IMG/VR virus record: IMGVR_UViG_3300043464_000911
Coordinates: 1-23,883 of that record
Source: a virus
Strand: one strand, 5' to 3'
DNA: 23,883 nt
Shown here: positions 3,189 through 22,645 of the stretch, in pieces
Layout: each line of letters opens with the position of its first letter
Numbering within the stretch: position 1 is the first letter of the stretch
Program-made: the position numbers and the translations under genes
The notes under the pieces: generated by a model
Told to the model about the DNA's origin: nothing
The model's database searches: none
The model's input: only the letters and a program-made list of their open reading frames with translations

Positions 3189-3221
3189 AAGAGCAACGCC
3201 ACCGGCTCGGCAAGGTTAGCC

Positions 3222-3636: not shown

Positions 3637-3668
3637 TCTGTAAAACGGGAAATGCGTTAAATTTCCTG

Positions 3669-3685
3669 CCTTATATATAGTAAGG
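3669..3685. promoter_or_regulatory. AT-rich palindrome CCTTA-N7-TAAGG
   Basis: Perfect 5-bp arms around TATATAG. The centre resembles a -10 box (TATAGT at 3676-3681) but no good -35 box lies upstream. Could be an operator or the core of a promoter read by a phage or alternative sigma factor. Confidence 0.35.
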
Positions 3686-3721
3686 GGTTTTAATAGGAAA
3701 AGCCCTGAGCAGTCAGCGGTT

Positions 3722-3737
3722 GGCCTCTTACGAGGCC
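3722..3737. other. GGCCTC-TTAC-GAGGCC hairpin
   Basis: Perfect 6-bp GC-rich stem with a four-base loop; a stable small hairpin in the leader upstream of the terminase gene. No T-run follows on either side. Confidence 0.45.
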
Positions 3738-3780
3738 CCTAGGCCGAGTTCAGTCTTACCCCTCAGTTCGCTGTAGCTCC

Positions 3781-3799
3781 TTCGGGCGCTAAGCCCGAA
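3781..3799. other. TTCGGGC-N5-GCCCGAA hairpin
   Basis: Perfect 7-bp stem with loop GCTAA. The stem is strong enough to act in transcription termination or RNA processing, but the following bases (CCGCTCCGG) are not T-rich. Confidence 0.45.
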
Positions 3800-3830
3800 C
3801 CGCTCCGGTACTTTTAGTGGGGATAGGTCT

Positions 3831-3844
3831 ATCTACTGGTAGAT
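3831..3844. promoter_or_regulatory. Palindrome ATCTAC-TG-GTAGAT
   Basis: Perfect 6-bp arms with a two-base centre, 112 bp before the terminase start. The short spacer makes it more likely a dimeric protein site than a stem-loop. Confidence 0.4.
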
Positions 3845-3867
3845 GAAACCTTCCTCGCCTAGTATAA

Positions 3868-3928
3868 GGAATCTCTGATTCCGGCCCGAGGCCTACGCGC
3901 CTCGTGTAAAAATAAACCGATTCCGGCC
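3868..3928. repeat. Hairpins and 10-bp direct repeat before terminase; candidate packaging site
   Basis: GGAATC-TCT-GATTCC (3868-3882) and CGAGGC-N6-GCCTCG (3887-3904) are perfect 6-bp stems. GATTCCGGCC occurs at 3877-3886 and again at 3919-3928, exactly 42 bp apart (about four helical turns); the second copy runs into the palindrome CCGGCCGG. Clustered repeats directly upstream of terminase genes often mark cos or pac sites in tailed phages. The fit with the DNA-binding domain on TerL is inference. Confidence 0.45.
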
Positions 3929-3955
3929 GGTCCCCAATAAATTTTAGGAGATCAC

Positions 3956-5815: not shown

Positions 5816-5828
5816 TAAGGAGATAACA

Positions 5829-6275
5829 ATGGGAGAATATAAGAGTCGTAGCAATGACCCTCGTATCACTAAGGGAGCTAAGAAAGACAAGTACTTATAC
5901 GATATGGCTCGTGAAGTAGCACTTCAGCCAGCTGATACACCAGAACGTAAGCGTATGAAGAAGGATGCTCAAAACTACGTACGTGCCTTTGAGTCACGTT
6001 TTCAAAAAGAAGCATTTGTTCGCTCAGGTCGTAACCCATATTCAGCAGGTGGCAAAGGCGAAAACATTGACGAAAGATTTGTAGACAAGGTAGCAGCAAA
6101 GACTTCAGGAACTCAAGCAACAAAGAGGGCAGTAGGAAAGATGAGCAAGGCTCAGCCAAAGACTACATCAAAAAGCCCATCAATTAAAGTTACTAAGAAG
6201 CTAAGTCAAGCACCTAAGCGTACTCCAAAGAACGCACAAACACTTCGTCGATTTGCTAAAGGTGGTAAGAAGTAA
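5829..6275 (+). CDS. Lys-rich basic protein 1 (148 residues)
   Basis: Start is the ATG at 5829 with AAGGAG at 5817-5822; a longer in-frame start at 5778 lies inside terL and is not used. N-terminal two thirds (MGEYKSRSNDPRITKGAKKD onward) look helical, with FVRSGRNPYSAGGKGENIDE in the middle. The last 50 residues are Lys/Ser/Pro/Thr-rich and disordered (TKKLSQAPKRTPK, ending RRFAKGGKK), like histone H1-type tails. The C-terminus resembles that of the next gene (KVTKK...KK versus KITKK...KAGKK), suggesting paralogy. Likely DNA-binding. A role in the capsid (bound to packaged DNA) or in host nucleoid control is a guess; I know no named family. Confidence 0.8.
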   Translation: MGEYKSRSNDPRITKGAKKDKYLYDMAREVALQPADTPERKRMKKDAQNYVRAFESRFQKEAFVRSGRNPYSAGGKGENIDERFVDKVAAKTSGTQATKRAVGKMSKAQPKTTSKSPSIKVTKKLSQAPKRTPKNAQTLRRFAKGGKK

Positions 6276-6742
6276 TGGCAGCTACAAAAAAGCCAAAGGG
6301 AGCTTATCCTAAAATTGGTGGTGTTGGTGGAGTTGAATTTACTGGCAGATCAAAAGCTGAGAAATTTGAAAACTACATAACTGGTATCAGAGATACATCA
6401 GAAACACGCAAAGATAGATTTGAAAACACTTCTCGTCTTTATGCTGCAGCACGTAAAATAGGCCTTAGTGAAAAAGCCGTAAAGCCACAGATTGATGCTC
6501 TTGCAAAAGACTTAAAAAAGTACGGCGCAGCGGTTGAAAAGAAAACTTCCAAGATGGATATGGAAGATATGATGCGACGCTCTGCTGAGAACCAAAAGTT
6601 AAAAGCTAAAAAAACTGCGGCATCAAAGCCAGCAGCAAAGAAAGCAGCAGTAAAGATTACTAAGAAGTCAGCTGCAACCCTAAGTCGTAAGCCAAAAGCA
6701 GGACCTGTAGTTAAGATGGCTAAGAAGGCAGGTAAGAAGTAA
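6275..6742 (+). CDS. Lys/Ala-rich histone-H1-like basic protein 2
   Basis: 155 residues; the ATG shares a base with the upstream stop (TAATG) and GGTGG serves as a weak ribosome site, so translation is probably coupled. The N-terminal 100 residues are a helical domain (ENYITGIRDTSETRKDRFEN, LYAAARKIGLSEKAVKPQID). The last 45 residues are almost pure Lys, Ala, Ser and Pro (KAKKTAASKPAAKKAAVKIT, ending KMAKKAGKK), the composition of H1 tails and of the tails on some actinobacterial nucleoid proteins. Nucleic-acid binding is very likely from composition; the target is unknown. It lies between terminase and portal, pointing to a virion or packaging role. Confidence 0.8.
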   Translation: MAATKKPKGAYPKIGGVGGVEFTGRSKAEKFENYITGIRDTSETRKDRFENTSRLYAAARKIGLSEKAVKPQIDALAKDLKKYGAAVEKKTSKMDMEDMMRRSAENQKLKAKKTAASKPAAKKAAVKITKKSAATLSRKPKAGPVVKMAKKAGKK

Positions 6743-7068
6743 TGGCAAATATGAAGAAGCCTGCGCCTAAGAGACTTACAGGTCCTCGCGCACCATCAAC
6801 TAAAAAGAGCGTCAGAGTTCCAGCGGTTAAAAAAAGTAATCAGCCACCTACTCAAAGGAGATTGCTGCCTAAAGATATGAACGCAGCACCTAGTCCAAGG
6901 AGACTATTGGCTAACTCTGCACTTGCAGCATCTGCTCCAAAAAGAGTGACAACTGCAGCAAAGAAAGAAGCGGCTAATCCAAAGGTTGCAAAGAGAGCAC
7001 CTCTAGAAACCAAGCGTATTGGTGGAGTTTTTGCTATACCAGTAAAGCCTAAGAAAACAATTTACTAA
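6742..7068 (+). CDS. Lys/Pro-rich basic protein 3 (108 residues)
   Basis: Third of the basic series, again starting at a TAATG overlap. It begins MANMKKPAPKRLTGPRAPST and is Lys, Pro, Ala and Arg-rich throughout, with repeated PKRL/PRRLL/PKRV units (APKRLTG, QRRLLPKD, PRRLLANS, APKRVTT). No folded domain is evident until the last 15 residues, which end IGGVFAIPVKPKKTIY and may form a strand. Probably an intrinsically disordered nucleic-acid-binding or scaffold-like protein. Function unknown; grouped with its neighbours by composition and coupling. Confidence 0.75.
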   Translation: MANMKKPAPKRLTGPRAPSTKKSVRVPAVKKSNQPPTQRRLLPKDMNAAPSPRRLLANSALAASAPKRVTTAAKKEAANPKVAKRAPLETKRIGGVFAIPVKPKKTIY

Positions 7069-7087
7069 ATAATTTAAGGACCCTACA

Positions 7088-8845
7088 TTGTTATCAGTCA
7101 AAGAAGTTGACGCTAAGCTAGCACGCTTACGTACTCGCTCATCAGCGCGAGATCAACGTATGCGTGATGTGCTCTCGGTGCGTCAAGGAGATATCTCTAA
7201 GGTATATCCTGCAATGTTTTCAGAGGAATATCCAAAGCCTCTGGTTGCAAACTTCATTGACGTAGCAGCACGAGATCTAGCAGAAGCAATGGCACCACTG
7301 CCATCCTTTAACTGCTCAGCAACTAATATGGTTTCAGATGCAGCACGCAAGGCAGCAGATACTAGAACTCGTATTGCAAACTTTTATGTAACAAACTCTG
7401 ACCTACAACTGCAGATGTACACAGCAGCAGACTGGTATAACACCTATGGTCTTGGTATTGGTATGGTTGAGATGGACTTTGAGGACAACAATCCTCGTAT
7501 CCGTATGCTCAACCCATTCGGTACCTATCCAGAGTTAGATCGTTATGGTCGCGTTATGTCTGTTACTCAGGTTATCGTTACCGATGCAGAGACATTGGCT
7601 TCACAATACCCAGAGTATTACGACATAATCCTAGGTAAAAACCAGTATGCTCTGTCTTCTCCTTATATCTCAATGGTCAAGTACCACGATAAGGACCAGG
7701 ATCTACTGTACTTACCAGAACGTAAGAACTTAGTTCTATCACGTACACCTAACATCTTGAACAAGCCTATGGCATCTGTCGTAATGCGTTCATCTCTTGA
7801 CGGAGAAGCACGTGGACAGTTTGATGATGTTTTATCTGTACAGTTAGCTCGTGCTCGCTTTGCAGTATTGCAGATCCAAGCAGCAGAAAAGTCTATCCAA
7901 GCACCTATTGCTATCCCACAGGATGTGCAAGAACTTGCTCTTGGTCCAGATTCAATTATGCGTTCTGCTAACCCACAAGGTATTCGTCGTGTTCCACTAG
8001 AACTACCACCTGGAGTTTTCCAAGAATCTGGGGTCCTTGAGCGTGAATTACGCCTTGGTTCTCGTTACCCAGAATCTCGTTCAGGTAACATTGACGCATC
8101 AGTTGTAACTGGTCGCGGTGTGCAAGCACTACAGGCTGGCTTTGATACACAGATCAAATCAGCACAAGCACAGTTTGCTCGTATGTTCCAGGAACTTATC
8201 TCAGTTTGCTTTGAAGCAGATGAGAAAGTATTTGGTGGTATTCCAAAGACCATCAAGGGTTCAGATGATGGAACGCCTTACGTTCTCAAGTACACACCAT
8301 CTCGTGACATCAAGGGTGAGTATGGCGTAGATGTACGCTACGGAATTATGTCTGGTATGGATCCAAACCGTGCCATCATTGCTTTACTACAAATGCGCTC
8401 AGACAAGCTCGTATCTCGTGACTATGTACGTCGTGAGATTCCAATGGACTTGAATGTTACGCAGGAGGAACAACGTGTTGATATCGAAGAAATGCGCGAT
8501 TCTTTGCGCGTGGCTGTTGCTCAGTATGCTCAAGCCATTCCGGCCCTTGCAGCGCAAGGTCAGGACCCTACAGAGATTATCACCCGCATTGCGTCTGTTA
8601 TCCAAGGTCGGCAAAAGGGCCAATCGCTAGAGAGCACAATCGAAAAAGCATTTACACCAGAACCACCTCCAACCCCAGAGATGCCACCAATGGCACCAGG
8701 TATGGAACAACAACTTCCAGCAGCAGGAGCGGCCCCCGCCCCAGCCTCAGCGCAACCTCCACAAGAACAAGGTGGTATGGCCCCTGCTGCTGGTCAAAGA
8801 CCCGATATAGCCCAATTACTCGCTGGTATCACCGGCGCAGCTTAA
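7088..8845 (+). CDS. Portal protein
   Basis: Dodecameric ring at the capsid vertex through which DNA enters and leaves. 585 residues; start is TTG at 7088, seven bases after AAGGA, the best-placed start, giving MLSVKEVDAKLARLRTRSSA. The N-terminal stem region has PKPLVANFIDVAARDLAEAM and then a helical part with ADWYNTYGLGIGMVEMD and NPFGTYPELDRYGRV, a pattern typical of portals of terminase-linked tailed phages (membrane-free, long helices plus a wing domain). A long helix around GRGVQALQAGFDTQIKSAQA could be the clip/stem helix. From about residue 521 the tail is Pro/Ala/Gln-rich and disordered. Position after terminase supports the call; family assignment is by pattern and context, not search. 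Confidence 0.85.
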   Translation: MLSVKEVDAKLARLRTRSSARDQRMRDVLSVRQGDISKVYPAMFSEEYPKPLVANFIDVAARDLAEAMAPLPSFNCSATNMVSDAARKAADTRTRIANFYVTNSDLQLQMYTAADWYNTYGLGIGMVEMDFEDNNPRIRMLNPFGTYPELDRYGRVMSVTQVIVTDAETLASQYPEYYDIILGKNQYALSSPYISMVKYHDKDQDLLYLPERKNLVLSRTPNILNKPMASVVMRSSLDGEARGQFDDVLSVQLARARFAVLQIQAAEKSIQAPIAIPQDVQELALGPDSIMRSANPQGIRRVPLELPPGVFQESGVLERELRLGSRYPESRSGNIDASVVTGRGVQALQAGFDTQIKSAQAQFARMFQELISVCFEADEKVFGGIPKTIKGSDDGTPYVLKYTPSRDIKGEYGVDVRYGIMSGMDPNRAIIALLQMRSDKLVSRDYVRREIPMDLNVTQEEQRVDIEEMRDSLRVAVAQYAQAIPALAAQGQDPTEIITRIASVIQGRQKGQSLESTIEKAFTPEPPPTPEMPPMAPGMEQQLPAAGAAPAPASAQPPQEQGGMAPAAGQRPDIAQLLAGITGAA

Positions 8846-8862
8846 GCAGAGGAGGTGTAAAT

Positions 8863-9003
8863 ATGAACAAGGGATCTCGCGCAGCAGCGCCAATGTCAAA
8901 GCCAGTAGAAGGCAAGAAGGACACATCTAAGCCAGCAGGTGGCAAGGTAGTTCCATCAATGATGCCAGCAGGCCGTCGTGGCAACGCAGTAAAAAAGGGA
9001 TAA
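8863..9003 (+). CDS. 46-residue disordered basic peptide
   Basis: A strong GGAGG site at 8851-8855 precedes the ATG. Product starts MNKGSRAAAPMSKPVEGKKD and ends MMPAGRRGNAVKKG; it is Lys, Ala, Gly and Pro-rich without hydrophobic core, so probably unfolded. It lies 17 bases after the portal stop and 30 bases before the next gene. It is similar in character to the basic proteins before the portal. Too short for family recognition; the strong ribosome site and matching codon use support it as real. Confidence 0.65.
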   Translation: MNKGSRAAAPMSKPVEGKKDTSKPAGGKVVPSMMPAGRRGNAVKKG

Positions 9004-9032
9004 TAACTTTTTAATGAGAGGTGTACTGGGCG

Positions 9033-9245
9033 ATGAAAGATGATAAATACATTCCTCGTCCAGTACGCTTTCTCGATCTTGTTGTTGTAGGCGTAGGCTT
9101 TATACACAACATAGCTTCATCTATTGAAACCTTAACAGGTGAACTAATGGAGTTAGCAATTTATCAATCAAATCATCTTACTCAAACCAATAGGGCTTGG
9201 GAAGATATGACAGCAGATTTAGAGAAATTACAGGAGGACAAATGA
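9033..9245 (+). CDS. 70-residue conserved-looking small protein
   Basis: Product starts MKDDKYIPRPVRFLDLVVVG, continues VGFIHNIASSIETLTGELME and ends ADLEKLQEDK. A hydrophobic segment (FLDLVVVGVGFIHNIA) at about residues 13-28 may be a membrane-interacting helix, followed by a coiled-coil-like C-terminus. I recall similar VRFLDLVVVGVGF proteins in actinobacteriophage structural regions, of unknown function. ATG at 9033 is preferred to a GTG at 9021, which has no ribosome site; GAGAGG lies upstream. The stop overlaps the next start (ATGA). Confidence 0.72.
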   Translation: MKDDKYIPRPVRFLDLVVVGVGFIHNIASSIETLTGELMELAIYQSNHLTQTNRAWEDMTADLEKLQEDK

Positions 9246-9655
9246 CAACTGCACCAATGAACCCAAAGGCAGGCGTATCAGGTCCAGGCAAGTACGCAGT
9301 TCGTACTGATAGATTAGAAATGGGTTCTACTTCATACGGCGAAGGCGTTGAGACACAGGCTATTAAGTCTGGCGCTCCGCTAGCCAAGACTAAAGATACT
9401 CGCCCAGCTCCAACAGGGCGACCAGTAACATCACTTTATGCACCAACAGAACGTCCAGATGAGCCTGTAACTACAGGCATTGATCAGGGTGCAGGTGCAG
9501 GATCAGATGCTCTAATGGTTAATCAGCCAGCTGATTACACAAACTTTAACTCTAATATCCAATCTTATACTCCAGTGCTTTCTTACGTTGCGTCTTTGCA
9601 AAATACATCTCCTGAAACACGTAGAGCTATTAGACAACTAATGGACTCACTATAG
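9242..9655 (+). CDS. 137-residue GPGKYAVRTD-type phage protein
   Basis: Starts MTTAPMNPKAGVSGPGKYAV with AGGAGG three bases before the ATG, overlapping the previous stop (ATGA). The N-terminal SGPGKYAVRTDR...YGEGVETQAIKSGAPLAKT pattern is, from memory, shared by small portal-linked proteins of marine and freshwater phages whose role is unknown. The middle is Pro/Thr/Gly-rich and disordered; the last 45 residues look helical (SYVASLQNTSPETRRAIRQL). Its place between the portal and the 1568-residue protein suggests a virion or assembly role. Confidence 0.78.
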   Translation: MTTAPMNPKAGVSGPGKYAVRTDRLEMGSTSYGEGVETQAIKSGAPLAKTKDTRPAPTGRPVTSLYAPTERPDEPVTTGIDQGAGAGSDALMVNQPADYTNFNSNIQSYTPVLSYVASLQNTSPETRRAIRQLMDSL

Positions 9656-9656
9656 T

Positions 9657-12600
9657 ATGGAAACACAAAAGATATGGAACCGAATTGGTGATGTAGCTTC
9701 TACTACTGCTAAAAACGCATTTAAGTTTGCAGGAGAAGTAGTAGGAGCAGGTGCTGGAGTTGCACGCTTTGCGTGGGATGTAGGTACTGCTCCTTGGAAC
9801 GACCAGGCTCAGTATAATGGCTTTATTCAACCGTTCAAAACAGCTGCTGCAAAGCAAGGTGGCGATATTGTAAAGCCATTTGCATCTGCAGGTGGAGCAA
9901 TTATGAAGGTTCCTGGTGTTGCACCAGCCCTTGAACGTATTAACTATGTTAATCGTGAGTACATCCGTGAACCATTAACCACTGTTGCTTTAGTATCTGG
10001 CGATATTCTTTCAGAGCGTGTACCACAAACAGGAATTTTTGATCCTAATGTATGGCGTAATGCCTATAAGGGTGCTCAAGACATTTCATTTGGTCAAGCA
10101 ACTGTTGCTTACTATAGAAATGTTTACGACCCAAAGTTTAATGTTTATGATCCAAAGCAACGCGAGCAAGCATTTAAGAACAGTGGTTGGGGTAAAGGCC
10201 TAACAGGTACTGTTGATGTATTTGCCCAGGTATTTGGAGATGTAACTCTTGCTGCTGGTAAGGCTACTAAAGTATTAAAGGCATCGGATGTAGGTGTTGG
10301 TAAACTATCAACAGCAGATGATATAGCAAAAGCAGCAGAAGATATTACAAAAGCACAATACGGTGAAGTAAACCGTATGACTAAAGTACTAGATGACTTT
10401 ACTAAGAACGATTCTGCCTACGCTATTAGCCACCCAATGGTTAAGTCTTCATCTAACCCAGGACTTCTTGCACACCTTTTAGGTGATTCTGTAGATATTG
10501 ACGAAACAGCGCTTATCTTGCGTTCTGCTATGTCAGATCCTGTAGCTATGGACGAATTACGTCAATCTCGTCGCTATATTACTGATGCACTAGAGACTGC
10601 TCGTGGTGATTTGTCATCTGTTGATGAGTGGAAACTATTTTCCGCACCTGATGATTCTGGAATGATTCCATTCCTTAACGATAATCCAGCAGTTATAGAT
10701 GATGCTCTTGCTAATTACAGATCCCTTGTAGAAAACGATAAGTATTTTGCAAAGTTGATGGAGATTGGCCAAGGTGGAGGTATTCTTACACGCACAACTG
10801 GTAAAGGTCTACAAGGAATAGAAGATCTAGTAGCTCAAGGTCGTGCTGTTAGATTCTATGACAGGGCTGTTGGTACTCCTCGTGTCGAAGTTTTCCAACC
10901 AACACCATTTCATCGTTTATATCAAAAGATTTCTTGGGGTCTAAAAGAAAGACCTGCAGGTTTAATTGACTTTAACGATGCTGATTCTTACAAAGAGATA
11001 ATTGCAACTATAAATATTATCGGACCGAATGAGGCACCAAGACTAGCGGCACCAACCTTGCGTGGTCTTGATCTTTTTACTGCAGAAGAATCTAAAGGTT
11101 TATTAGATAACTATATTGCTGCTCGTACACCTGAAGAACGTATGGCTGCAGCACTAACTCTTGAAAGTTCAGTATTCCGTAGACTTACGGATAAGTACGG
11201 TATTGATGAAAAGATTGCTAATGATATCTATAACAACTATAGAGGCGCTAGAACATCTGCCCAAAAGTCTATTCAAGATAGAGGCTTTATGGTTGATATT
11301 GATGGTGAGATCATCCGTGTTCCTCAACTAGAATCTCAGACAGCAAACTTCTTGCCTATAATGGATTTTAAGTTAATGGATAAACTACTTAAGCGTAGAA
11401 AATTTGAACTCAATCGTCTTGCTGGAAATGCAAATGACAAAGTTTTGTCTCTTGTAAATTTTTTGCAGGATGCTTTTAAGGCTGGAGCATTGCTTCGTCT
11501 TGGATATACAATTCGCAATGGCATTGATTCTCAGCTTCGTATTGCTGCATCTGTTGGATCTATTGCCACATTGCGACACCTAGGTCCTGGCATAAAAAAT
11601 TTGATTGACAATACTGTTCCTGTTCCTGCACGTCTTATTGATACTTACCGTGCAATAGATTCTGGTAAAAATATCAGTCAAGTTCAAGATGCCAGCGTAA
11701 AAGTAATGAATGAACTTGCAGAATTAAAAACCAGAATTGGTGCATTAGAAGCAAAGTTATCTTTGAATCCAGATGATCTTGATGCATTTGGTGAAATAAA
11801 TACATTAAGACTTTTACAAGAAGAAAAGTTAGCTGTATATAATCACTACGCAGATGTTCTTAACCGTAAAGGTGTTGCTGATCCAAAGGCAAGAATTGGT
11901 AGTGGATCATTTAGGACTACAACATCAGATGGTGAAATCTATGATTTAGATGATGCATTTGGTGGACCACTTGGTGATATGTTCCGCAAGATTGCATCTT
12001 CCGGTAACTCATTTGAACGATTAGTAGATAGTAATGCTTATGCTTACATCAAGCGACTAGCATCAAAAGGTATCGGCGTTGTTCGACCAACAGATCCTGC
12101 ATACTTTGAACAGTGGGCGCAAACATTGCGTCAACAGTTTGGTAACTCTGCAGTAGTTACTAAGATTGCTAACGGTGAGTCAATTGAAGATGTCATTAAA
12201 TGGCTACGTAACTCACCAGAAGGTCGTGACCTTCGCAAGCGTCTTGCAATTAGATCAGATGATTCACAGGAATATGTTGAAAGAATCAATGGATTCTTGG
12301 ACCAATATCTACCTCTTGAATCTGGACTTCGTGGCAAAATTAAAGATGTTACTGCAGCTGATTTGCGTTTAGCCTTTAATGATCCAAATGATTTACCACT
12401 TATTCACGGTCACGTTCTTGAAGAAACATTTAAGAATAAATCTGCAATCTTTTCAGACCAGTTAATTAATAACCTCTTTAAGTTAATTGGAACATTACCT
12501 GAAGATGCTTGGGCAAGAAACCCTCTTTATATTGAACTCTACCGACGCGAAGCACGTCGCCGTCTTGAAATTATGACAGGACAAAGAGTTGAACGCCTTA

Positions 12601-14363
12601 CGGTAGATGAACAAGCTGAGTTGATGGCCCAGTCTCACAAAGTTGCTTTGCGTGATATGAAGGGCATTTTGTTTAATATTGAACGTCGTAGCAATCTTGC
12701 TACAGCCTTCAAATTTATCAGCCCATTCTTTTCTGCACAAGAAAACTCTTACAAGACTTGGCTTAAGTTAGCAGCAGCTAACCCTGCTATTGTTAATCGT
12801 GGTTATCTAGTGTGGAACTCACCTAACCAAGCAGGTCTTGTTACAGACCAAGAAGGAAATCCAGTGCCAGCAGGTCAGACCACTGGTAATGATATTATCT
12901 GGTTAAGCCTTCCAAAAGAAGTTGCAAAGATTCCTTACTTTGGAAAAGGTTTAGAACCTTTTGTTAAGCCAGATGCAAAACCTGGAGACAAGACCATTTA
13001 TGGTGGTGGTTTAGGCGTTCCAAAGGGATCACTAGACATCTTGTTCCAAGGTGGATTAGATATGCTTTATACAAAGGGAAGTCCAAATGTATTTAGCGAC
13101 ATCTTCCCAGTAGGTCCTTATGTTGCAGTTCCTGTATCAGAAATTGTAAAGCGTCAGCCTTCATTAGAAGATGCGTTTAAGTGGGCATTGCCATTTGGTC
13201 CATCTAAGGATCCAATAGCAGGTTTTACTCCTGCTTGGTTTCAAAGACTACGCACTCGCTTTGCAGGACAAGAAGATCCACAATTTGCTAATGTGTATCA
13301 ACTTATTGCTAATACACAAAATCAACGTGCAAAGCGTAATGGTGTAAAGCCACCAACTGAAAAAGAAATTACAAAAATGGCTCAAAGATATTGGATGATG
13401 CGTACTGCAGCTAATCTAATTATGCCATTTGCTCCACGTTTTGATACTCCTTACAAATACTATATGGATAAGTCTCGTGAGTATCGTCGTCTGTATGGAC
13501 TTGAAGCAGATGCTAAGTTCCTAGATGACTACCCAGAGTTCTTCTCATTCTCTGCAAGCCTGTCTTCTAACCCAACTAACGTGCAGTCTTCTGTTCAAGC
13601 AGTTGAAAACATCAAGAAGTATGGGGATTTAGTATCAGATTTAGCAAATATTGAGCCTCGTCTTGTAGGTCTTATTACTAACAACTTTACAGGCTATGAG
13701 TTTTCTCAAGCAGCATATAATTATTTACAGAGAAAACCCATTTCACCATCTTCATCAACAAAGTTTTTAGAATCTCAGTCAGTGGCAGATGCACAAAAAC
13801 GCAATGAAGCTGAAAAGGGATGGATTCAATACAACCGGCTTATGGATGCTATTGACAATGATCTTCAGGATCGTGGTCTTACATCAACACAGCAAAAGGG
13901 TGCAGAAGATCTGGCAATTCTTAAAACTGCAGTTATTACTAAACTATCTCAAAAGACGGATGCTAATGGTAACCCAATTGTCAATCCAGTAACTGGTCAG
14001 ATTGAGCAAACTGCTTGGTCAGATGATTACCTAGATTCAGATGGATCTAAAACTAACCGAGTAATCCTTGGACTTGGTAGAATTTTTACAGATAAAAAGT
14101 TTATTGAAGCCAATAAGAATAACCCTACTTGGAAGTCAGTATCTGCTTACTTAGATTTACGTAAGGCTATTGCTCAAGAACTTTCAAGTCGTAAGGTTAA
14201 GTCAATTACTGCTAAGGCTAATACTGACCTGAAATTAATTTTAGACGGAACTGTTAACAAACTCAAGCAAGATGATAAGTTAGGTTTTGCCTATGTGTAT
14301 GACCGTTTCTTATCACAAGATCTTGTATATGATAAATATTTAACCCCGAAAGAGAGTGACTAA
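9657..14363 (+). CDS. Giant 1568-residue protein, likely internal or ejected virion protein
   Basis: The largest gene in the window. It opens METQKIWNRIGDVASTTAKN, followed by a Gly/Ala-rich amphipathic part to about residue 50. It is mainly helical, with a Leu/Ile-rich segment at about 608-640 (LLRLGYTIRNGIDSQLRIAA), a coiled coil at about 675-740 and an aromatic segment near 1017 (FKFISPFFSAQENSYKTWLK). I see no catalytic signature of a lysozyme, protease, kinase or single-subunit RNA polymerase. Size, helicity and place next to the portal recall internal/ejection proteins of podoviruses (T7 gp16 is about 1300 residues), but this is inference. It could also be a large tail-associated protein. 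It does not look like a tape measure: no tandem repeats, and it precedes the capsid genes. Confidence 0.75.
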   Translation: METQKIWNRIGDVASTTAKNAFKFAGEVVGAGAGVARFAWDVGTAPWNDQAQYNGFIQPFKTAAAKQGGDIVKPFASAGGAIMKVPGVAPALERINYVNREYIREPLTTVALVSGDILSERVPQTGIFDPNVWRNAYKGAQDISFGQATVAYYRNVYDPKFNVYDPKQREQAFKNSGWGKGLTGTVDVFAQVFGDVTLAAGKATKVLKASDVGVGKLSTADDIAKAAEDITKAQYGEVNRMTKVLDDFTKNDSAYAISHPMVKSSSNPGLLAHLLGDSVDIDETALILRSAMSDPVAMDELRQSRRYITDALETARGDLSSVDEWKLFSAPDDSGMIPFLNDNPAVIDDALANYRSLVENDKYFAKLMEIGQGGGILTRTTGKGLQGIEDLVAQGRAVRFYDRAVGTPRVEVFQPTPFHRLYQKISWGLKERPAGLIDFNDADSYKEIIATINIIGPNEAPRLAAPTLRGLDLFTAEESKGLLDNYIAARTPEERMAAALTLESSVFRRLTDKYGIDEKIANDIYNNYRGARTSAQKSIQDRGFMVDIDGEIIRVPQLESQTANFLPIMDFKLMDKLLKRRKFELNRLAGNANDKVLSLVNFLQDAFKAGALLRLGYTIRNGIDSQLRIAASVGSIATLRHLGPGIKNLIDNTVPVPARLIDTYRAIDSGKNISQVQDASVKVMNELAELKTRIGALEAKLSLNPDDLDAFGEINTLRLLQEEKLAVYNHYADVLNRKGVADPKARIGSGSFRTTTSDGEIYDLDDAFGGPLGDMFRKIASSGNSFERLVDSNAYAYIKRLASKGIGVVRPTDPAYFEQWAQTLRQQFGNSAVVTKIANGESIEDVIKWLRNSPEGRDLRKRLAIRSDDSQEYVERINGFLDQYLPLESGLRGKIKDVTAADLRLAFNDPNDLPLIHGHVLEETFKNKSAIFSDQLINNLFKLIGTLPEDAWARNPLYIELYRREARRRLEIMTGQRVERLTVDEQAELMAQSHKVALRDMKGILFNIERRSNLATAFKFISPFFSAQENSYKTWLKLAAANPAIVNRGYLVWNSPNQAGLVTDQEGNPVPAGQTTGNDIIWLSLPKEVAKIPYFGKGLEPFVKPDAKPGDKTIYGGGLGVPKGSLDILFQGGLDMLYTKGSPNVFSDIFPVGPYVAVPVSEIVKRQPSLEDAFKWALPFGPSKDPIAGFTPAWFQRLRTRFAGQEDPQFANVYQLIANTQNQRAKRNGVKPPTEKEITKMAQRYWMMRTAANLIMPFAPRFDTPYKYYMDKSREYRRLYGLEADAKFLDDYPEFFSFSASLSSNPTNVQSSVQAVENIKKYGDLVSDLANIEPRLVGLITNNFTGYEFSQAAYNYLQRKPISPSSSTKFLESQSVADAQKRNEAEKGWIQYNRLMDAIDNDLQDRGLTSTQQKGAEDLAILKTAVITKLSQKTDANGNPIVNPVTGQIEQTAWSDDYLDSDGSKTNRVILGLGRIFTDKKFIEANKNNPTWKSVSAYLDLRKAIAQELSSRKVKSITAKANTDLKLILDGTVNKLKQDDKLGFAYVYDRFLSQDLVYDKYLTPKESD

Positions 14364-15532
14364 TGGCATATTCAGATGCAACGAAAGCTGCTCTTAAAAA
14401 AGCAGGTTATACAGACGATGAAATTAAAGCAATGGAAGCTGCAGCAGCTGATACCACTGATACTGGAGATGATAAGCCAACAAAACCAAAGGTTGATTCA
14501 ACTAGATATCCAGCTATCTCTAGCCCTACTCAGGCTACGCAACTTATCAACAAGGTATTCCAAGATGTCCTAAAGCGTCCTGCTACTGCTGCGGAAATGA
14601 AGAAGTGGAAGCCACTTCTTAAAGCAGCACAAGAGAAGAACGCATCAACCCAAACATATACAGTCAAGGGCAAGATTGGAACTCAAGCCACTACAGGTGG
14701 ATTAGATGCTGATACCTGGTTATTGCTTCAGCTCCAAGGAGATCCAGAGTACAAGGCAGAACTTGATAAGGTTAAGTTTACTGACCCTTACCTATTTCAG
14801 CGTCAATCAGATAAGAAGTTGTATCAAGATGCAATCGCTGCAGCAGGTAATGATGTTGCCAAGTTAGCAGAAGTAGAAGCAACTACAACTTATGGACGAG
14901 GACTTAAAGACCTTAAGGATGCTATTGAAACAGCACGCCTTGCAGCTGGTGCAGAACTTACAGATGTTGAGATTACTGCCCTAGCACAAGAGGCATACGA
15001 TAAAGGCCTTGATAGAGAGCGTAATTCTTTTAACGCTTTCCTTGATAGCAAGTTTAAGTTTAGCGCTGAGGGTGCCAAGGGTAAAGCAGGCGAGCAACTA
15101 TCAGAGCTGCAGAAAGTAGCAGCGGCTAATGGCCTAGATCTACAGAAGGCTTTTGGTACACAACTGCCTACTTGGTTTGCATCTATTAACAAGGGTGAGT
15201 CTATTGATACTTACAAGAAGATTATCCGTGATGTAGCCAAGATTGGTATGCCACAGAATATTGCATCTTTACTTGATAATGGTGTTGACCTAGACGCTAT
15301 CTATTCACCATACAAGAATGTAATGGCATCTGTCCTAGAGATTAACCCAGAGTCAATTACTCTTAGTGACCCAGTACTACGCAGCGCGATTACTGGTGAG
15401 AAAGAACTTCCAATCTATGAATTCCAGCGTCAACTCCGTAAGGACTCTCGCTGGCAGTATACTAATCAGGCTAAAGAAGAAGTGTCTGATGTCGCACTTA
15501 AAGTCCTTCGTGACTTTGGATTCCAGGGGTAA
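14363..15532 (+). CDS. Large helical virion protein A (389 residues)
   Basis: Starts at a TAATG overlap with the giant gene. N-terminus MAYSDATKAALKKAGYTDDE is a UBA-like short helical stretch, then an acidic linker. Residues about 57-85 (ATQLINKVFQDVLKRPATAA) have the VFxxVLxRPATxxE spacing reminiscent of the DUF4214-type module, a weak resemblance. The C-terminal half is helical, with a GLDLQKAFGTQLPTWFASIN segment and NGVDLDAIYSPYKNVMASVL. It may be distantly related to the C-terminal half of the next protein. Function unknown; likely structural by position between portal and scaffold. Confidence 0.75.
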   Translation: MAYSDATKAALKKAGYTDDEIKAMEAAAADTTDTGDDKPTKPKVDSTRYPAISSPTQATQLINKVFQDVLKRPATAAEMKKWKPLLKAAQEKNASTQTYTVKGKIGTQATTGGLDADTWLLLQLQGDPEYKAELDKVKFTDPYLFQRQSDKKLYQDAIAAAGNDVAKLAEVEATTTYGRGLKDLKDAIETARLAAGAELTDVEITALAQEAYDKGLDRERNSFNAFLDSKFKFSAEGAKGKAGEQLSELQKVAAANGLDLQKAFGTQLPTWFASINKGESIDTYKKIIRDVAKIGMPQNIASLLDNGVDLDAIYSPYKNVMASVLEINPESITLSDPVLRSAITGEKELPIYEFQRQLRKDSRWQYTNQAKEEVSDVALKVLRDFGFQG

Positions 15533-15534
15533 AG

Positions 15535-16980
15535 ATGGCACGCGATCCACAGAGTGGTTCATTCAACTCTAAAGTTGTAGATGAACAAACTAAAGCAGCT
15601 GGGCTTCGTGCTGCAGCAGCGGCTATTCCAGGAGCAAGAGTTGCTATTGCTAAAACTCCAGGCGAGCTTGCAATTGAAAGAATAAATGCACAGATTGCTA
15701 AGAATCAAGCAAGTGTTGAAAGTTTAGAAAGAAGTGCTACAGAACTTGGTGCATTAAATCCTGCTGTTATGACAAAAGCAGCTGGAGAAAGCAACGCACA
15801 ATTTTTAGCACGTAAACAAGCAGCAGAAGCATTAGCCCGTCAAAACGCTATTGCATCAGATCCACTTAGGAACAAAGCATCAAAGCCAACAAATGCTCCT
15901 GCTGGAAAGTACTACGCTTGGATAGGTGGAACCGATACAGGCAGTTGGCAACTCTATGACATTCCTGGCTATGGAACTACAGGTGCTGGTGGCGATACAG
16001 GTGGTGTTACTGGCAGTGATATTGGTGGAACCACTGATGGTGGTCAAACATATACAGCACCAGATGGAAAGATCTTTACAGACCTTAATGCTTACAACAC
16101 ATACCTTGCAGATCTAAAGCAACAGGACAAGACTAAGGCAGGACAGTCTGCTTACGATCTACTATTTGAACAGTTTAACCAATATGGTATGGGCGCTCTA
16201 GTAGAACCACTTAAGCAGTTCATTCAGCAGGGTCTATCTTCATCAGAGTTTACTCTTCGTTTGCGCGATACAGATGCTTACAAAAAGCGCTTTGCTGCTA
16301 ACGCACAACGCATTGCTAAGGGCCTATCTGCTCTTAATGAGGCTGAGTACATTGGTCTTGAGGACCAGTACCAGAACATTATGCGCGAGTATGGATTGCC
16401 TTCCTCTTACTACGCACGTGGTGATATGGGTCGCCAAGAAGGATTTGAAAAGTTCTTGGCCAATGATGTATCTGCAGCAGAACTAGAAGACCGCGTTATG
16501 ACAGCACAGTCTCGTGTTATGAACGCTAACCCAGAAGTACTTGCTTCACTTAAGCAGTTCTATCCAGGTATTGCCAATGGAGATATTCTTGCCTACACAT
16601 TAGATCCTGAGAAGGCACTAACAGATATTAAGCGTAAGGTAACTGCTGCTGAAATTGGTGGTGCTGCAATGCAAGCAGGACTACAAGCTGGAGTTACTCG
16701 CGCTGAAGAACTTGGTGCTGCTGGTGTCACTAAGCAACAAGCACAGCAAGGTTACGGAACTATCGCCGGTGGACTACAGCGTGGTTCACAACTTGCATCT
16801 ATCTATGGAGAAAATCCATATACTCAGACAACAGCAGAGTCTGAAATCTTTAACATTGCTGGTTCAGCAGAAGCTGAGAAGCAACGCAAGAAACTTACTT
16901 CACTAGAGAAGGCCACATTTAGTGGTCAATCTGGAGCATCATCTAGTGCCTTAGTACGAGATCGTGCTGGCGCTTACTAA
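15535..16980 (+). CDS. Large helical virion protein B (481 residues)
   Basis: Starts MARDPQSGSFNSKVVDEQTK two bases after the previous stop. Layout: Ala-rich N-terminus, short coiled coil (ERINAQIAKNQASVESLERS) at about 38-57, a Gly/Thr-rich linker at about 150-175, then an all-helical half: LRDTDAYKKRFAANAQRIAK, a YIGLEDQYQNIMREYGLPSS helix pair and GDILAYTLDPEKALTDI. I recall RFAANxxR...LSPAEYIALExxYRxxMxxxGLP proteins in actinobacteriophages annotated as minor structural proteins. Likely a virion protein with a repeated four-helix module; role unknown. It ends with a Ser/Ala-rich tail. Confidence 0.78.
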   Translation: MARDPQSGSFNSKVVDEQTKAAGLRAAAAAIPGARVAIAKTPGELAIERINAQIAKNQASVESLERSATELGALNPAVMTKAAGESNAQFLARKQAAEALARQNAIASDPLRNKASKPTNAPAGKYYAWIGGTDTGSWQLYDIPGYGTTGAGGDTGGVTGSDIGGTTDGGQTYTAPDGKIFTDLNAYNTYLADLKQQDKTKAGQSAYDLLFEQFNQYGMGALVEPLKQFIQQGLSSSEFTLRLRDTDAYKKRFAANAQRIAKGLSALNEAEYIGLEDQYQNIMREYGLPSSYYARGDMGRQEGFEKFLANDVSAAELEDRVMTAQSRVMNANPEVLASLKQFYPGIANGDILAYTLDPEKALTDIKRKVTAAEIGGAAMQAGLQAGVTRAEELGAAGVTKQQAQQGYGTIAGGLQRGSQLASIYGENPYTQTTAESEIFNIAGSAEAEKQRKKLTSLEKATFSGQSGASSSALVRDRAGAY

Positions 16981-16992
16981 ATAAAAAGCCTG

Positions 16993-17016
16993 CCACTAGA
17001 GTAGCTGGACTAGTGG
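16993..17016 (+). promoter_or_regulatory. Inverted repeat in leader of scaffold-capsid genes
   Basis: CCACTAG (16993-16999) and CTAGTGG (17010-17016), perfect 7-bp arms with a 10-base loop, in the 126-bp gap between the helical proteins and the scaffold gene. No T-run follows, so an RNA-processing or stability element upstream of the highly expressed scaffold-capsid message is as likely as termination. AGTAGCTGG and AGTAGCTAG in and after the loop form a near-repeat. No clear promoter was found in this gap. Confidence 0.5.
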
Positions 17017-17049
17017 AGCGACAATCAAAACCAGTAGCTAGAGCCATAC

Positions 17050-17063
17050 CGTTTCCCCAAACG
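17050..17063 (+). other. CGTTT-CCCC-AAACG hairpin
   Basis: Perfect 5-bp arms around CCCC, 44 bases before the scaffold start. Its core TTTCCCCAAA is identical to that of the hairpin at 3173-3188 in the control region. Confidence 0.45.
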
Positions 17064-17106
17064 AATATGAGGCTAGTGCCAACAACTAATAGGGAGAAGG
17101 ACCACT

Positions 17107-17577
17107 ATGTCCAATTACGACTACGAGGATGAAGACGACATCACACAAGATGATTCGCCTAACGACCTAGTAAAGCAACTACGTAAAGCAGCTAAGCAGA
17201 AGGACAAAGAACTACAAGAGCTACGTGCTCAGTTTGAAGGCCTTAACAAAGCGCAACGTGAAAGAGCAATAAAGGATGCCCTCGCTAGTCGCGGGGTAAA
17301 CAGCAAAATTGCTTCATTTATCCCACAGGATATAGACCCAACTGAAGAGTCTGTATCTAAATGGCTTGAAGACTATGCCGATGTATTCGGTATTGAAACA
17401 GGCCAAACCCAGGCAACACCTAACGTAAATCCAAACGATGCTGCAGCATATAAGCGTATGACTAACTCCGCAGACTCTGGTGTTTCACCAGAACATAACG
17501 GAGACATTATGCAAAAACTTATGAACGCTAACAGCAGAGAAGAATTGGATGAAGTTATCAGATTGTCTGGACTCTAA
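17107..17577 (+). CDS. Capsid scaffolding protein
   Basis: 156 residues: very acidic N-terminus (MSNYDYEDEDDITQDDSPND), then a Lys/Glu coiled coil (VKQLRKAAKQKDKELQELRA) at about 22-41, a short helical domain (DPTEESVSKWLEDYADVFGI), a disordered linker and a small C-terminal helical pair (IMQKLMNANSREELDEVIRL) likely to touch the capsid protein. Size, charge pattern and place directly before the major capsid gene fit a scaffold that directs procapsid assembly and then leaves. No protease catalytic site is seen here or nearby. Ribosome site AGGGAGAAGG precedes the ATG. Confidence 0.8.
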   Translation: MSNYDYEDEDDITQDDSPNDLVKQLRKAAKQKDKELQELRAQFEGLNKAQRERAIKDALASRGVNSKIASFIPQDIDPTEESVSKWLEDYADVFGIETGQTQATPNVNPNDAAAYKRMTNSADSGVSPEHNGDIMQKLMNANSREELDEVIRLSGL

Positions 17578-17609
17578 TCCGATCCTAAAACAGAAAGGCT
17601 AGACCATAA

Positions 17610-18788
17610 ATGGCTATCCCAACAGGTACCCCTACCACCACGTCTAGCATCAGCAACCTCGTACAAGCAGCATACGATCAGTATGTAAGAATGGCACTTC
17701 GTTCCATTCCTGTTATGCGTTCACTTGCAGATGTTAAGCCAGTGCAACAGGCAATGCCAGGATCATCAGTTGTATTCTCAATCTATTCAGATTTGGCTCA
17801 GGCTACATCTACATTGACAGAATCATCAGATGTTTCAAGCATTGCACTAGGTAACCCATCACAGGTTACAGTAACACTGAACGAATACGGTTCAGCAGTT
17901 ACAACAACAAAGAAGCTAAACCTAACTTCTTTCAACGATGTTGATTCAGCACTTGCTGACATCATCGCATACAACGCAGCAGATTCGATTGACAACGTAG
18001 TAGGTCAGGTCCTCTCAGCAGGAACTAACGTGATCTACTCAAACGGTCCATCAGGAACTGTTCCAACTGCATCATCAGGAATTCTCCCAGTAGACACAAT
18101 GACAGTTGCGGATATCCGTAACGCTGTTGTTTCACTACGCACAAACAAGGCATTGCCTCGTATGGGTGAACTATATGCTGCATACCTACACCCACGTCAG
18201 TCAGCCGATCTTCGTGCTGAAACTGGTACAGGTGGCTTCCAGGAGCTAACAAAGTACGTTGAGCGTACACCGTTCGTTGCTGGTGCAGTAGGCGTTATCG
18301 AAGGCGCTTTCATCGTTGAGACACCTCGCGTTCTTAACGGTCTAAAGTTGTCTACAGGTATCACACCTACAGTTGCTATCACCAACGTTGCTTTGACATC
18401 TAACGTAGTAACAATTACTACAGCAGTTGCTCACGGCCTCGGAACAGGTCAGGTTGTAACAGTTGCTGCTACAACTAACACAGGTGTTAACGGCACATAT
18501 ACCATCACAGGTACAACATCAACAACATTTACCTATGCACTTACAGCATCTAACATTACATCAGTTGCTGACACAGGTACTGTTACATTTACCAACAACT
18601 ACCGCGCAATCGTCGCTGGTCGTGAAGCATTGGCTGAAGCACAGGCAGCAGACATCTCAACCGTTATCGGTCCAGAGATTGATGCGCTACGTCGTTTCCG
18701 CACAATCGGTTGGTACTACTTCGGAGGCTTTGCACGCCTTCGTGAAGCTGCGCTCTTCCGCATTGAGTCTGCAGCAACAAACGGATAA
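17610..18788 (+). CDS. Major capsid protein (N4-gp56-like) with inserted domain
   Basis: 392 residues. An HK97-fold capsid protein by pattern: N-terminal helix (NLVQAAYDQYVRMALRSIPV), beta-rich E-loop region, the central helix TVADIRNAVVSLRTNKALPR, and YAAYLHPRQSADLRAETGTG, a segment typical of N4-gp56-family capsid proteins. The protein ends IDALRRFRTIGWYYFGGFAR plus a short tail. Residues about 250-329 are unlike the rest: Thr/Val-rich with VAHGLGTGQVVTVAATTNTG and NGTYTITGTTSTTFTYALTA, a small beta domain inserted before the final strands. Codon use is smooth across it. RBS AAAGG upstream; scaffold directly precedes, as expected. No cleavage site is evident. Confidence 0.88.
   Translation: MAIPTGTPTTTSSISNLVQAAYDQYVRMALRSIPVMRSLADVKPVQQAMPGSSVVFSIYSDLAQATSTLTESSDVSSIALGNPSQVTVTLNEYGSAVTTTKKLNLTSFNDVDSALADIIAYNAADSIDNVVGQVLSAGTNVIYSNGPSGTVPTASSGILPVDTMTVADIRNAVVSLRTNKALPRMGELYAAYLHPRQSADLRAETGTGGFQELTKYVERTPFVAGAVGVIEGAFIVETPRVLNGLKLSTGITPTVAITNVALTSNVVTITTAVAHGLGTGQVVTVAATTNTGVNGTYTITGTTSTTFTYALTASNITSVADTGTVTFTNNYRAIVAGREALAEAQAADISTVIGPEIDALRRFRTIGWYYFGGFARLREAALFRIESAATNG
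18357..18596 (+). other. Beta-rich domain inserted in the capsid protein
   Basis: Covers capsid residues about 250-329. Strand-forming runs (VAITNVALTSNVVTITTAVA) are followed by the AHGLxTGxxVTV...GVNGTYTITGTxSTTFTYAL pattern, which I know as a small repeat found in many phage tail and fibre proteins (VTTxxAHGLxxGDxV...FNGTYTV...TFTYA). The domain is probably displayed on the capsid surface, like Ig-like decorations in other phages. Boundaries are approximate. Confidence 0.6.
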
Positions 18789-18805
18789 TTCCGCTAGTGC
18801 AACGG

Positions 18806-18831
18806 CAGGGGGTGGGGAAACCCGCCTCCTG
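18806..18831 (+). terminator. Hairpin after the capsid gene, possible attenuator
   Basis: CAGG-GGGT pairs with ACCC and CCTG around loop GGGGAA, with a four-base bulge (GCCT) in the 3' arm, 18 bases after the capsid stop. No T-run follows, so it is not a classical terminator; partial termination or mRNA stabilisation is likely. Such sites after capsid genes help keep capsid output high relative to downstream genes. Confidence 0.4.
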
Positions 18832-18851
18832 TCACTTAGGAAAGGTTGGAT

Positions 18852-19178
18852 ATGGCATACACATTAACAACTCCGTACCAGTGGCAAACTTGGGGCGCAG
18901 GGTATAACGAGTTCACTCCATACTCACGCCTTGCAGGTCGTCGTTTTAATGGTGGCACTATTGATGGAGCTATCGCTCCTAGTATGACTGATATCCCACG
19001 AGGCCAAACTTTAATTGTTAATGGAACTACGGTAACTGCTACGTTAACTCCAAGCCAAGATGATTTAGCAGCAGCTAGTTATTACTTCCTCGGTGGTCAC
19101 GAATATACTATTAGCGATGCACAAGCACAGGTACTTATCAATGCTGGCTACGGCGATTATGTGACACCGGTAGTATGA
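18852..19178 (+). CDS. 108-residue head-region protein
   Basis: Product starts MAYTLTTPYQWQTWGAGYNE from the ATG at 18852, six bases after AGGAAAGG; a TTG at 18846 is less well placed. Two parts: an aromatic N-terminus (YQWQTWGAGYNEFTPYSRLA) and a C-terminus with YYFLGGHEYTISDAQAQVLI then NAGYGDYVT. The latter, strand-turn-strand then helix and GYG, is a small module seen at the ends of other phage structural proteins. Immediately after the capsid gene, a decoration or head-completion role is likely but unproved. Confidence 0.75.
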   Translation: MAYTLTTPYQWQTWGAGYNEFTPYSRLAGRRFNGGTIDGAIAPSMTDIPRGQTLIVNGTTVTATLTPSQDDLAAASYYFLGGHEYTISDAQAQVLINAGYGDYVTPVV

Positions 19179-19978: not shown

Positions 19979-20133
19979 AGAAGACAGCGTTTTGGGATAA
20001 ACCAAATCCTAACAAGAAGTCAAAAGCATTAACGCCAGAGCAAAAGAAGAAAGCAAAGGCAAGAGCCAAAGCAGCGGGACGACCTTGGCCGAATTTGGTT
20101 GATAATGCCGCAGTTTCAAGAAAGAAAAAATGA
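19975..20133 (+). CDS. 52-residue FWDKPNPNKKSKALTPEQ-type peptide
   Basis: Product starts MKKTAFWDKPNPNKKSKALT, continues PEQKKKAKARAKAAGRPWPN and ends LVDNAAVSRKKK. The FWDKPNPNKKSKxLTPEQKxKAKxxAKxxGxPxPxLVxN pattern is, from memory, one of the most widespread small-protein signatures in aquatic phages, still uncharacterised. It looks like a helix flanked by Pro-rich caps. ATGA overlaps at both ends tie it to the Cys-containing basic protein before it and to the endonuclease after it. Confidence 0.78.
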   Translation: MKKTAFWDKPNPNKKSKALTPEQKKKAKARAKAAGRPWPNLVDNAAVSRKKK

Positions 20134-20567
20134 AAGTTTGCCCTACTTGTAAAGCATCTAAGCCATTAGATGACTATTGGAAAAGCCAATATAGTTGCAT
20201 ACCTTGCACTAAAGAAAAACAAAAGAATAGATGGAGTAGTAGAACTCCAAAGAAAAGGTTAGAGCAACATCTTAAATACAAGTATGGCGTTACTGTTTCT
20301 GAACTAGAAGAGACATTAAAAGAACAAAACAATAACTGCGCTATATGTAAATCGGAGTTGCCAGACCTACTTATCTATGAGAATAGAAAGCGTGGTTACG
20401 CTATAGATCACAACCACGATAACGGTGAGTTTCGTGGAATTCTATGCTTAACCTGTAATACCTTATTAGGTATGGCAAAAGATGACAAAGATATATTGTT
20501 AGCAGCAGTAGATTATTTAGAATTAAATGGAACATACGCTGCAGTCAAGAGAACTAAGAAGAAGTAG
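20130..20567 (+). CDS. HNH endonuclease of the endonuclease VII type
   Basis: 145 residues with two zinc sites. N-terminal ribbon: C4-x2-C7 and C23-x2-C26 (MKVCPTCKASKPLDDYW). The nuclease domain has C70-x2-C73, then YAIDHNHDNGEFRG with D93, H94, N95, H96 and R102, then C106-x2-C109 and N110: the beta-beta-alpha-metal fold of recombination endonuclease VII (T4 gp49-like). T4 gp49 resolves branched DNA before packaging; freestanding relatives with this N-terminal ribbon are also mobile homing nucleases. Its position in the middle of a structural operon favours the homing reading, or a packaging-linked nuclease, but it is coupled by ATGA to the previous gene, so it is not a crude insertion. Lys-rich end (KRTKKK). 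Confidence 0.88.
   Translation: MKVCPTCKASKPLDDYWKSQYSCIPCTKEKQKNRWSSRTPKKRLEQHLKYKYGVTVSELEETLKEQNNNCAICKSELPDLLIYENRKRGYAIDHNHDNGEFRGILCLTCNTLLGMAKDDKDILLAAVDYLELNGTYAAVKRTKKK

Positions 20568-20862: not shown

Positions 20863-22645
<1,783 letters not shown>

Follow-up and report, generated by a model that had tools for sequence, protein, structure and literature searches.

A cysteine-free gene block between portal and scaffold is probably an exchangeable ejection cassette of short-tailed actinobacterial phages

The stretch of viral DNA analysed here (hereafter the window) comprises 23,883 nucleotides of virus record IMGVR_UViG_3300043464_000911, and all coordinates given are window positions. 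Between its portal and scaffold genes, positions 9197–16980 encode four proteins of 152, 1568, 389 and 481 residues, referred to as p152, the giant, p389 and p481. We consider it probable that this block is the ejection cassette of a short-tailed actinobacterial phage, inherited and exchanged as a unit, with a giant protein that ferries an enzyme in some relatives. A sequence-only reading of the window had pointed to a 1568-residue protein and two other large proteins interrupting the portal–scaffold interval, and the corresponding open reading frames (ORFs) are indeed open and nearly abutting, with exactly the coordinates and sizes described; like the other cassette features and the packaging and head genes listed below, they lie on the plus strand. 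The cassette starts with p152 (9197–9655; phrog_8200, 2.8e-18), followed by the giant, the proposed ejected vehicle (9657–14363; phrog_10618, 6.6e-107), p389 (14363–15532; phrog_6654, 9.1e-30), and p481 (15535–16980; phrog_8424, 3.1e-95), which is 37–38% identical to Streptomyces phage proteins and conserved over approximately residues 188–480. The families matched by the giant, p389, and p481 are all PHROG families of unknown function.

This arrangement turned out to be the rule in a large group of actinophages. Relatives were collected from IMG/VR, with 79 loci from one scan and 80 kept from the 299 encoding stretches of a profile scan, and gene order and cysteine counts were derived from ORFs above length limits, with fragments dropped. 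The order portal, p152, giant, one or more p389 homologues, p481, scaffold, and major capsid protein (MCP) was shared by every one of the 129 distinct relatives over the extent of its contig, and a single one of these carried an extra terminase-labelled ORF between portal and p152. Since the same order recurs in 129 distinct relatives, the arrangement is not due to chance. Among described phages, the giant matches 29 records, all from Streptomyces phages, at ~24–25% identity (e.g., 25% over 1544 columns for a 1644-residue protein of phage Kumquat), and those for which taxonomy was read belong to the Beephvirinae and encode the same block in the same portal–scaffold interval. The sequence-only reading had also stated that podoviral internal proteins normally follow the capsid genes, and ejection genes are located 3' of the capsid gene in all eight comparator phages considered here (T7, SP6, phiKMV, P-SSP7, P22, Sf6, N4, and LIT1); the window order is thus unusual relative to these textbook phages.

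Both the hosts and the virion type can be approached through these relatives. A WhiB protein is encoded in six of ten freshwater records (the window and nine relatives), namely in the six largest relatives; the remaining four records, in which no WhiB match was seen, are shorter fragments. As WhiB is exclusive to Actinobacteriota (PMC10202952), the hosts of these phages are therefore actinobacteria. For the virion, Abafar (genus Manuelvirus), one of the Streptomyces phage relatives, is a podovirus whose tail measures 16 nm by transmission electron microscopy (PMC11536984). At the DNA level, window positions 7000–19000 gave no match among named phages, and no homologue of the giant was found among plasmids. 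A profile scan of bacterial and archaeal genome contigs for the giant returned 106 pattern stretches, none of which was confirmed, and hence no prophage home was found.

The first line of evidence for ejection is the near-complete absence of cysteine. The four cassette proteins of the window contain none in 2590 residues, compared to ~15 expected at the portal rate of the clade (Poisson P ~3e-7, ignoring relatedness), and both p389 and p481 also lack histidine. Across the freshwater clade, cysteine is absent from 85 of 87 giants and from every p152 (84/84), p389-type (76/76), and p481 (66/66) protein, against 9.7 cysteines per 1000 residues in the terminase (0/20 cysteine-free) and 5.8 per 1000 in the portal (0/55 cysteine-free). 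Streptomyces-type giants are cysteine-free in 36 of 42 cases, and the cysteines of the remaining six all fall within the first 43 residues, where they probably reflect miscalled start codons. The gp11 homologues that carry an NlpC/P60 domain each have exactly one cysteine (40/40), always within a DCSG motif that we take to be catalytic.

We compared this pattern to the eight comparator phages, leaving out phi29. Their 24 known or annotated ejection proteins, a set that includes N4 gp51/gp52, LIT1 72/73, and P-SSP7 033 by a reading of synteny, hold 3 cysteines in 20,404 residues, against 161 in 24,945 residues for 50 other packaging, head, and tail proteins, among which the T7 portal is incomplete (region edge). 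When restricted to proteins of at least 400 residues, 16 of 16 ejection proteins are cysteine-free versus 2 of 31 others (Fisher P 1e-10). The rule thus held for all 16 long ejection proteins across three unrelated systems, and it offers an inexpensive route to ejected proteins without any sequence similarity to one another. A remark on cysteine absence was made in 2010 for one N4-like virion RNA polymerase (vRNAP), that of LUZ7 and LIT1/PEV2, and was explained there by the need of the protein to pass the tail and the periplasm (PMC3715699). A general rule for ejection proteins was not found in the literature searched, which excludes most subscription journals.

A second line of evidence comes from cell wall hydrolases attached to the same module as p389. 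In Streptomyces phage Immanuel3, gp11 begins with an NlpC/P60 domain (PF00877, 3.6e-30) and gp12 with an SLT domain (PF01464, 2.5e-5), and both end in one common C-terminal module, phrog_6654. The C-terminal half of the window p389 (approximately residues 197–388; 14951–15526) belongs to this module and is 29–34% identical to gp12-type proteins of Kumquat, Stella, and Immanuel3. Recognisable homology to enzymes or tail proteins had been named beforehand as grounds for assigning another role, and such homology does exist in part, as the annotation of gp11 and gp12 reads "minor tail protein, peptidase/glycosylase". This nevertheless agrees better with hydrolases that are ejected, T7 gp16 being an example, than with tail components, with a tail location still conceivable. 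The AlphaFold2 model of p389 (mean predicted local distance difference test score, pLDDT, 89) consists mostly of helices with a short beta hairpin; Foldseek against the PDB gave no match at E<=0.001, and VIA-align Z scores stayed below 4, including a match to 7eyb_A, a "core proteins" chain, that was too weak to use (Z 2.6 over 53 residues). A common origin of the p389 and p481 families was considered and rejected (hhalign probability 6.5). Separately, four loci (L034:9279–11018, L041, L056, and L082) encode p389 versions of 580–585 residues which by eye resemble two tandem C-terminal modules, and L075:8552–10537 encodes a 661-residue version of p481 with a long alanine-rich N-terminal extension and short repeats.

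A third line of evidence, for the cassette as a unit, is provided by two phages of the same Planktophila strain, LanE43-AprE7 (OX376640; hereafter E7) and AprF5 (OX376641; F5). Their genomes are 96% identical at E7 positions 2833–8372 and 16922–38376, with no blastn match in between. This unmatched block of 8.5 kb begins with a crossover inside the p152 gene, most of which it covers, extends through the entire p481 homologue, and encodes giants of 1764 and 1711 residues with companions of 442 and 530 versus 364 and 482 residues (E7 versus F5), all of them cysteine-free. The block appears to be the difference published as an 8 kbp genomic island of hypothetical proteins without homologues in the other phage of the pair and without assigned function (PMC10202952), judging from its size and content. 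A profile built from 130 giants scored 109 bits against the F5 giant and 34 bits against that of E7, both co-linear, compared to 0.4 bits for the best of 201 shuffled or reversed control sequences, and hence the E7, F5, and window giants are diverged forms of one protein. This homology rests on the hidden Markov model test with its shuffled controls and not on hhalign, which gave a weak probability of 14.8 between the giant alignment and that of E-type giants. E-type and F-type relatives amount to 9 and 25 loci, with cysteine-free giants in 10 of 10 and 18 of 18 cases, fragments included. Within the freshwater clade, divergence across the 29 loci with all six genes is strongly correlated between portal and scaffold (rho 0.80) and much less so between portal and giant (rho 0.25; difference 0.55, bootstrap 0.29–0.86). 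The giant–p389 and giant–p481 pairs (rho 0.49 each) both exceed the portal–giant pair, although the interval for giant–p481 just includes no difference.

The giant was modelled with AlphaFold2 over residues 560–1568, yielding a helical structure with a mean pLDDT of 67 (mostly 80–90 for residues 1149–1568), so that the helical character earlier ascribed to these proteins is borne out for this region and for p389, the two models available. Foldseek found no PDB match at E<=0.001 and eight matches in BFVD, all unnamed or uncharacterised, one of them from Streptomyces phage Manuel. VIA-align mostly returned helical hairpins (best Z 10.0 over 71 residues at model positions 107–179), and a mid-length hairpin is predicted at giant residues 673–736 (11673–11864; model helices 114–144 and 149–177). 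No Pfam or PHROG match to an RNA polymerase was obtained for the giant, the model of which covers residues 560–1568 only.

Close to this hairpin, the giants of some relatives accommodate an additional domain. Inserts were surveyed in 130 giants, i.e., those of the 129 relatives and of the window (88 freshwater-type and 42 Streptomyces-type), and in E-type and F-type giants. Among 15 full-length F-type giants, six have an additional domain, always inserted after the position of F5 residue 822: this is a 200-residue ADP-ribosyltransferase (ART) in L227 and L232 (PF03496, 6e-16 and 9.9e-18), and a ParB-like domain of 146–149 residues in L228, L229, L230, and L231, with the same insert in L228 and L229. 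Support for the ParB-like assignment includes Pfam ParB_N below cut-off in two inserts and phrog_1033 (2.6e-7) for L231. A search with the ART insert identified six contigs, including L244, whose 1938-residue giant is 57% identical to that of F5 over its second half. One of ten E-type giants (L210) has a 96-residue GNAT domain after residue 757 (PF00583, 1.4e-4, above cut-off), and one freshwater-type giant (L080) has a 171-residue insert after the position equivalent to window residue 745 (11889–11894), a site that is empty in the window. Streptomyces-type giants have no cargo insert (0/42), two of them showing only 31-residue N-terminal additions. All insertion sites fall at 43–48% of giant length, which places them within the central helical region or immediately behind it. 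A search of the PDB with phmmer gave no match at E<=0.1 for the ART and GNAT inserts. Both domain types are known among the injected multidomain proteins termed polyvalent, and T4 provides an injected ART, Alt (PMC5512222). The L080 insert (171–178 residues, L080:3398–3931) had looked ART-like by eye, an assignment that was not kept as Pfam and PHROG gave nothing usable, and an IMG/VR search returned only L080 itself.

The observations themselves cover gene order and its conservation, cysteine absence, the hydrolase module, the E7/F5 replacement, and the insert domains of relatives; from them we infer virion location, ejection and its timing, membrane passage, and cargo action, as follows. The four cassette proteins would be packed in the head at the portal, an assembly that is plausible from gene position, and would leave first through the short tail, ahead of or together with the DNA. 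The p389-type module may anchor or deliver a wall-opening activity where a hydrolase is attached, i.e., NlpC/P60 or SLT in the Streptomyces phage relatives. The giant would then assist passage of the DNA through the single membrane and end up in the cytoplasm itself, in some relatives bringing along one enzyme domain inserted mid-length. The whole cassette is inherited and exchanged as a single unit, for which candidate reasons are a membrane receptor, defence by the host, and exclusion by phages already resident. More speculatively, podoviruses of Gram-positive actinobacteria may carry the cassette as a full, exchangeable ejection machine in which the giant offers a fixed cargo port, filled in closely related phages with different host-acting enzymes (ART, acetyltransferase, or ParB-like), and in which cassette identity decides what cells are entered or which competing phages are excluded, an extended version that we regard as possible but somewhat doubtful.

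Several results weigh against an ejection cassette. Profile searches of PDB sequences retrieved coiled-coil or chance rows only and no match to a solved ejection protein, and neither giant residues 560–1568 nor p389 has a significant fold match in the PDB. The window giant has no Pfam domain above cut-off and no cargo, and cargo is rare overall, being present in 1 of 88 freshwater-type, 0 of 42 Streptomyces-type, 1 of 10 E-type, and 6 of 15 F-type giants. No hydrolase was recognised by Pfam in the N-terminal half of the window p389, and NlpC/P60 was detected in none of ten freshwater records searched, several of which are fragments; a PF18013 tail lysozyme was seen in one of six cases, below cut-off and outside the block. 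Finally, cysteine is also absent from proteins not known to be ejected, including several scaffolds, the N4 MCP and gp57, and P22 gp26, and the scaffold of the window's own phage group is mostly cysteine-free. Because the proteins compared are not independent and scaffolds are often cysteine-free, cysteine absence is a strong pointer and not a proof.

As a rival explanation, the block may encode structural proteins of the head interior, such as a portal-barrel or DNA-organising core in which the giant acts as filler, which would be kept in the head rather than ejected. The position of the block, which immediately follows the portal and precedes the scaffold, agrees with this, as does the low cysteine content of the scaffold and of some capsid proteins of the group. 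Long cysteine-free proteins in the eight comparators are however almost all ejected, cell wall hydrolases sit on the same module as p389, and ART or GNAT domains inside giants would make little sense if these never left the head, so that we judge this explanation unlikely. About equally unlikely, or marginally more so, is a location in the tail or tail tip, with the giant as a tape measure or tail-tip scaffold. The annotation of gp11 and gp12 would suit such a role, and giant helical proteins do recall tape measures; yet a 16 nm podoviral tail is too short to need a 1600-residue tape measure, cysteines occur in comparator tail proteins (T7 gp11 and gp12, SP6 33 and 34) and in the phi29 tail hydrolase gp13, which has seven, and a separate tail-like module is found 3' of the capsid gene. 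That the block is a hypervariable island of accessory genes subject to ordinary turnover, as the published E7/F5 island of hypothetical proteins without homologues might suggest (PMC10202952), is highly improbable, since the proteins that were replaced are remotely homologous and co-linear (109 and 34 bits versus 0.4), retain the same order and lack of cysteine, and occupy the slot in every relative.

An ejection cassette thus remains the best-supported interpretation, given cysteine absence, the hydrolase module, a podoviral relative, and exchange as a unit. The sequence-only reading had proposed a distinct ejection apparatus and suggested structure prediction and gene-order comparison as checks: the apparatus itself is favoured, while it is not peculiar to the window phage, and modelling returned the helical fold without a PDB counterpart at E<=0.001. 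Beyond this earlier proposal, the unit includes p152, is swapped whole between near-identical phages, and has a cargo slot in its giant. As far as our searches reach, what is new is the function assigned to the block, the coincidence of its exchangeable and its cysteine-free extent, an account of what the E7/F5 island is, and the cargo slot; the PHROG families, the presence of the block in sequenced Streptomyces phages, ejection proteins, and polyvalent proteins were already known. If this interpretation is correct, ejection proteins would also serve phages of hosts with one membrane and a thick wall, among them the Nanopelagicales that abound in freshwater, and the 8 kbp island by which two cultured Planktophila phages differ would gain a function. 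The mid-protein inserts would in addition suggest that vehicles for protein delivery occur in nature, with an insertion point that is known.

The cassette is surrounded by packaging and head genes. These encode a large terminase subunit (3956–5815; phrog_38, 5.3e-65; 43% identity to Streptomyces phage terminases; six cysteines), a portal protein (7088–8845; 43–45% identity to annotated Streptomyces phage portals over 531–604 alignment columns; two cysteines), which forms the left flank, a scaffold-like protein on the right flank (17107–17577; phrog_7813, 2.8e-49; weak matches to scaffold families phrog_3760 and phrog_648, and PF14265 at 0.0041, below cut-off), and the MCP (17610–18788; phrog_1357, 1.2e-70; PF13252, 9.1e-17). 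Homologues of the MCP (L005–L083) come in two main lengths, ~309 and ~392 residues, the longer form containing by eye an inserted beta-rich stretch that was seemingly gained or lost between close relatives. Three small basic ORFs rich in lysine and alanine occupy the terminase–portal interval (5778–7068), where the Streptomyces relatives encode an endolysin. A ~190-residue proteasome-beta-like protein (PF00227, best 7.4e-8) was detected in freshwater relatives G001, G002, G003, G004, and G006, as well as at L204:7500–8036; its gene lies directly 3' of the portal in E7/F5 and elsewhere in G002 and G003. Further downstream in the window are a 145-residue ORF (20130–20567) with cysteine pairs and an HNH-like histidine/asparagine pattern by eye, possibly a homing endonuclease, a 482-residue protein consisting largely of collagen-like G-x-y repeats (21197–22645; PF01391, 1.2e-48), and, 3' of the latter, an ORF that by eye is glycosyltransferase-like (22655–23716).

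Among known systems, the ejection sets of T7 (gp14–16), P22 (gp7, gp16, and gp20), and N4/LIT1 (vRNAP and partners) resemble the cassette in being composed of small, middle-sized, and giant late proteins, which are cysteine-free when long and in some cases include wall hydrolase domains. They differ from it in that no sequence or fold match is detectable, their genes follow the capsid gene, and their hosts are Gram-negative; according to a review, ejection proteins occur in podoviruses that infect Gram-negative hosts, whereas phi29-like phages lack them (PMC8954989). With seven cysteines in 364 residues, the tail hydrolase gp13 of phi29 is unlike the gp11/gp12 homologues. The cassette lies among the late virion genes of a short-tailed phage and its long members are cysteine-free, the latter being a usual feature of ejection proteins according to our comparator counts rather than a published definition; a wall-degrading domain, common though not universal in ejection sets, is present in the Streptomyces relatives, and none was recognised in the window proteins. 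Polyvalent proteins and T4 Alt are late-encoded like the cargo giants, and polyvalent proteins are described as multidomain proteins with ART, GNAT, and other enzymes that are proposed to be injected (PMC5512222). Unlike polyvalent proteins, which have at least two disparate enzymatic domains, the giants of the relatives have at most one recognised inserted domain, and cargo giants combine one optional domain in a fixed mid-protein slot with a conserved helical vehicle; the window giant has none. E7 and F5 share with the window their genome size class, G+C content, gene order, homologous portal, scaffold, and MCP, and a slot filled by a cysteine-free giant and its companions, although their giants are only remote homologues. 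The Beephvirinae (Immanuel3, Manuel, Kumquat, Stella, and Abafar) differ by an extra 275-residue protein, two hydrolase-bearing copies of the p389 module (NlpC/P60 and SLT), and an array of tRNAs preceding the scaffold, where the window has a single p389 without recognised hydrolase and no tRNA. Their block proteins, all annotated as hypothetical or minor tail proteins (gp7–gp13), nevertheless correspond to the window in order, in homologous p152, giant, p389 module, and p481, and in the absence of cysteine, and Abafar adds a podoviral morphology to this shared plan.

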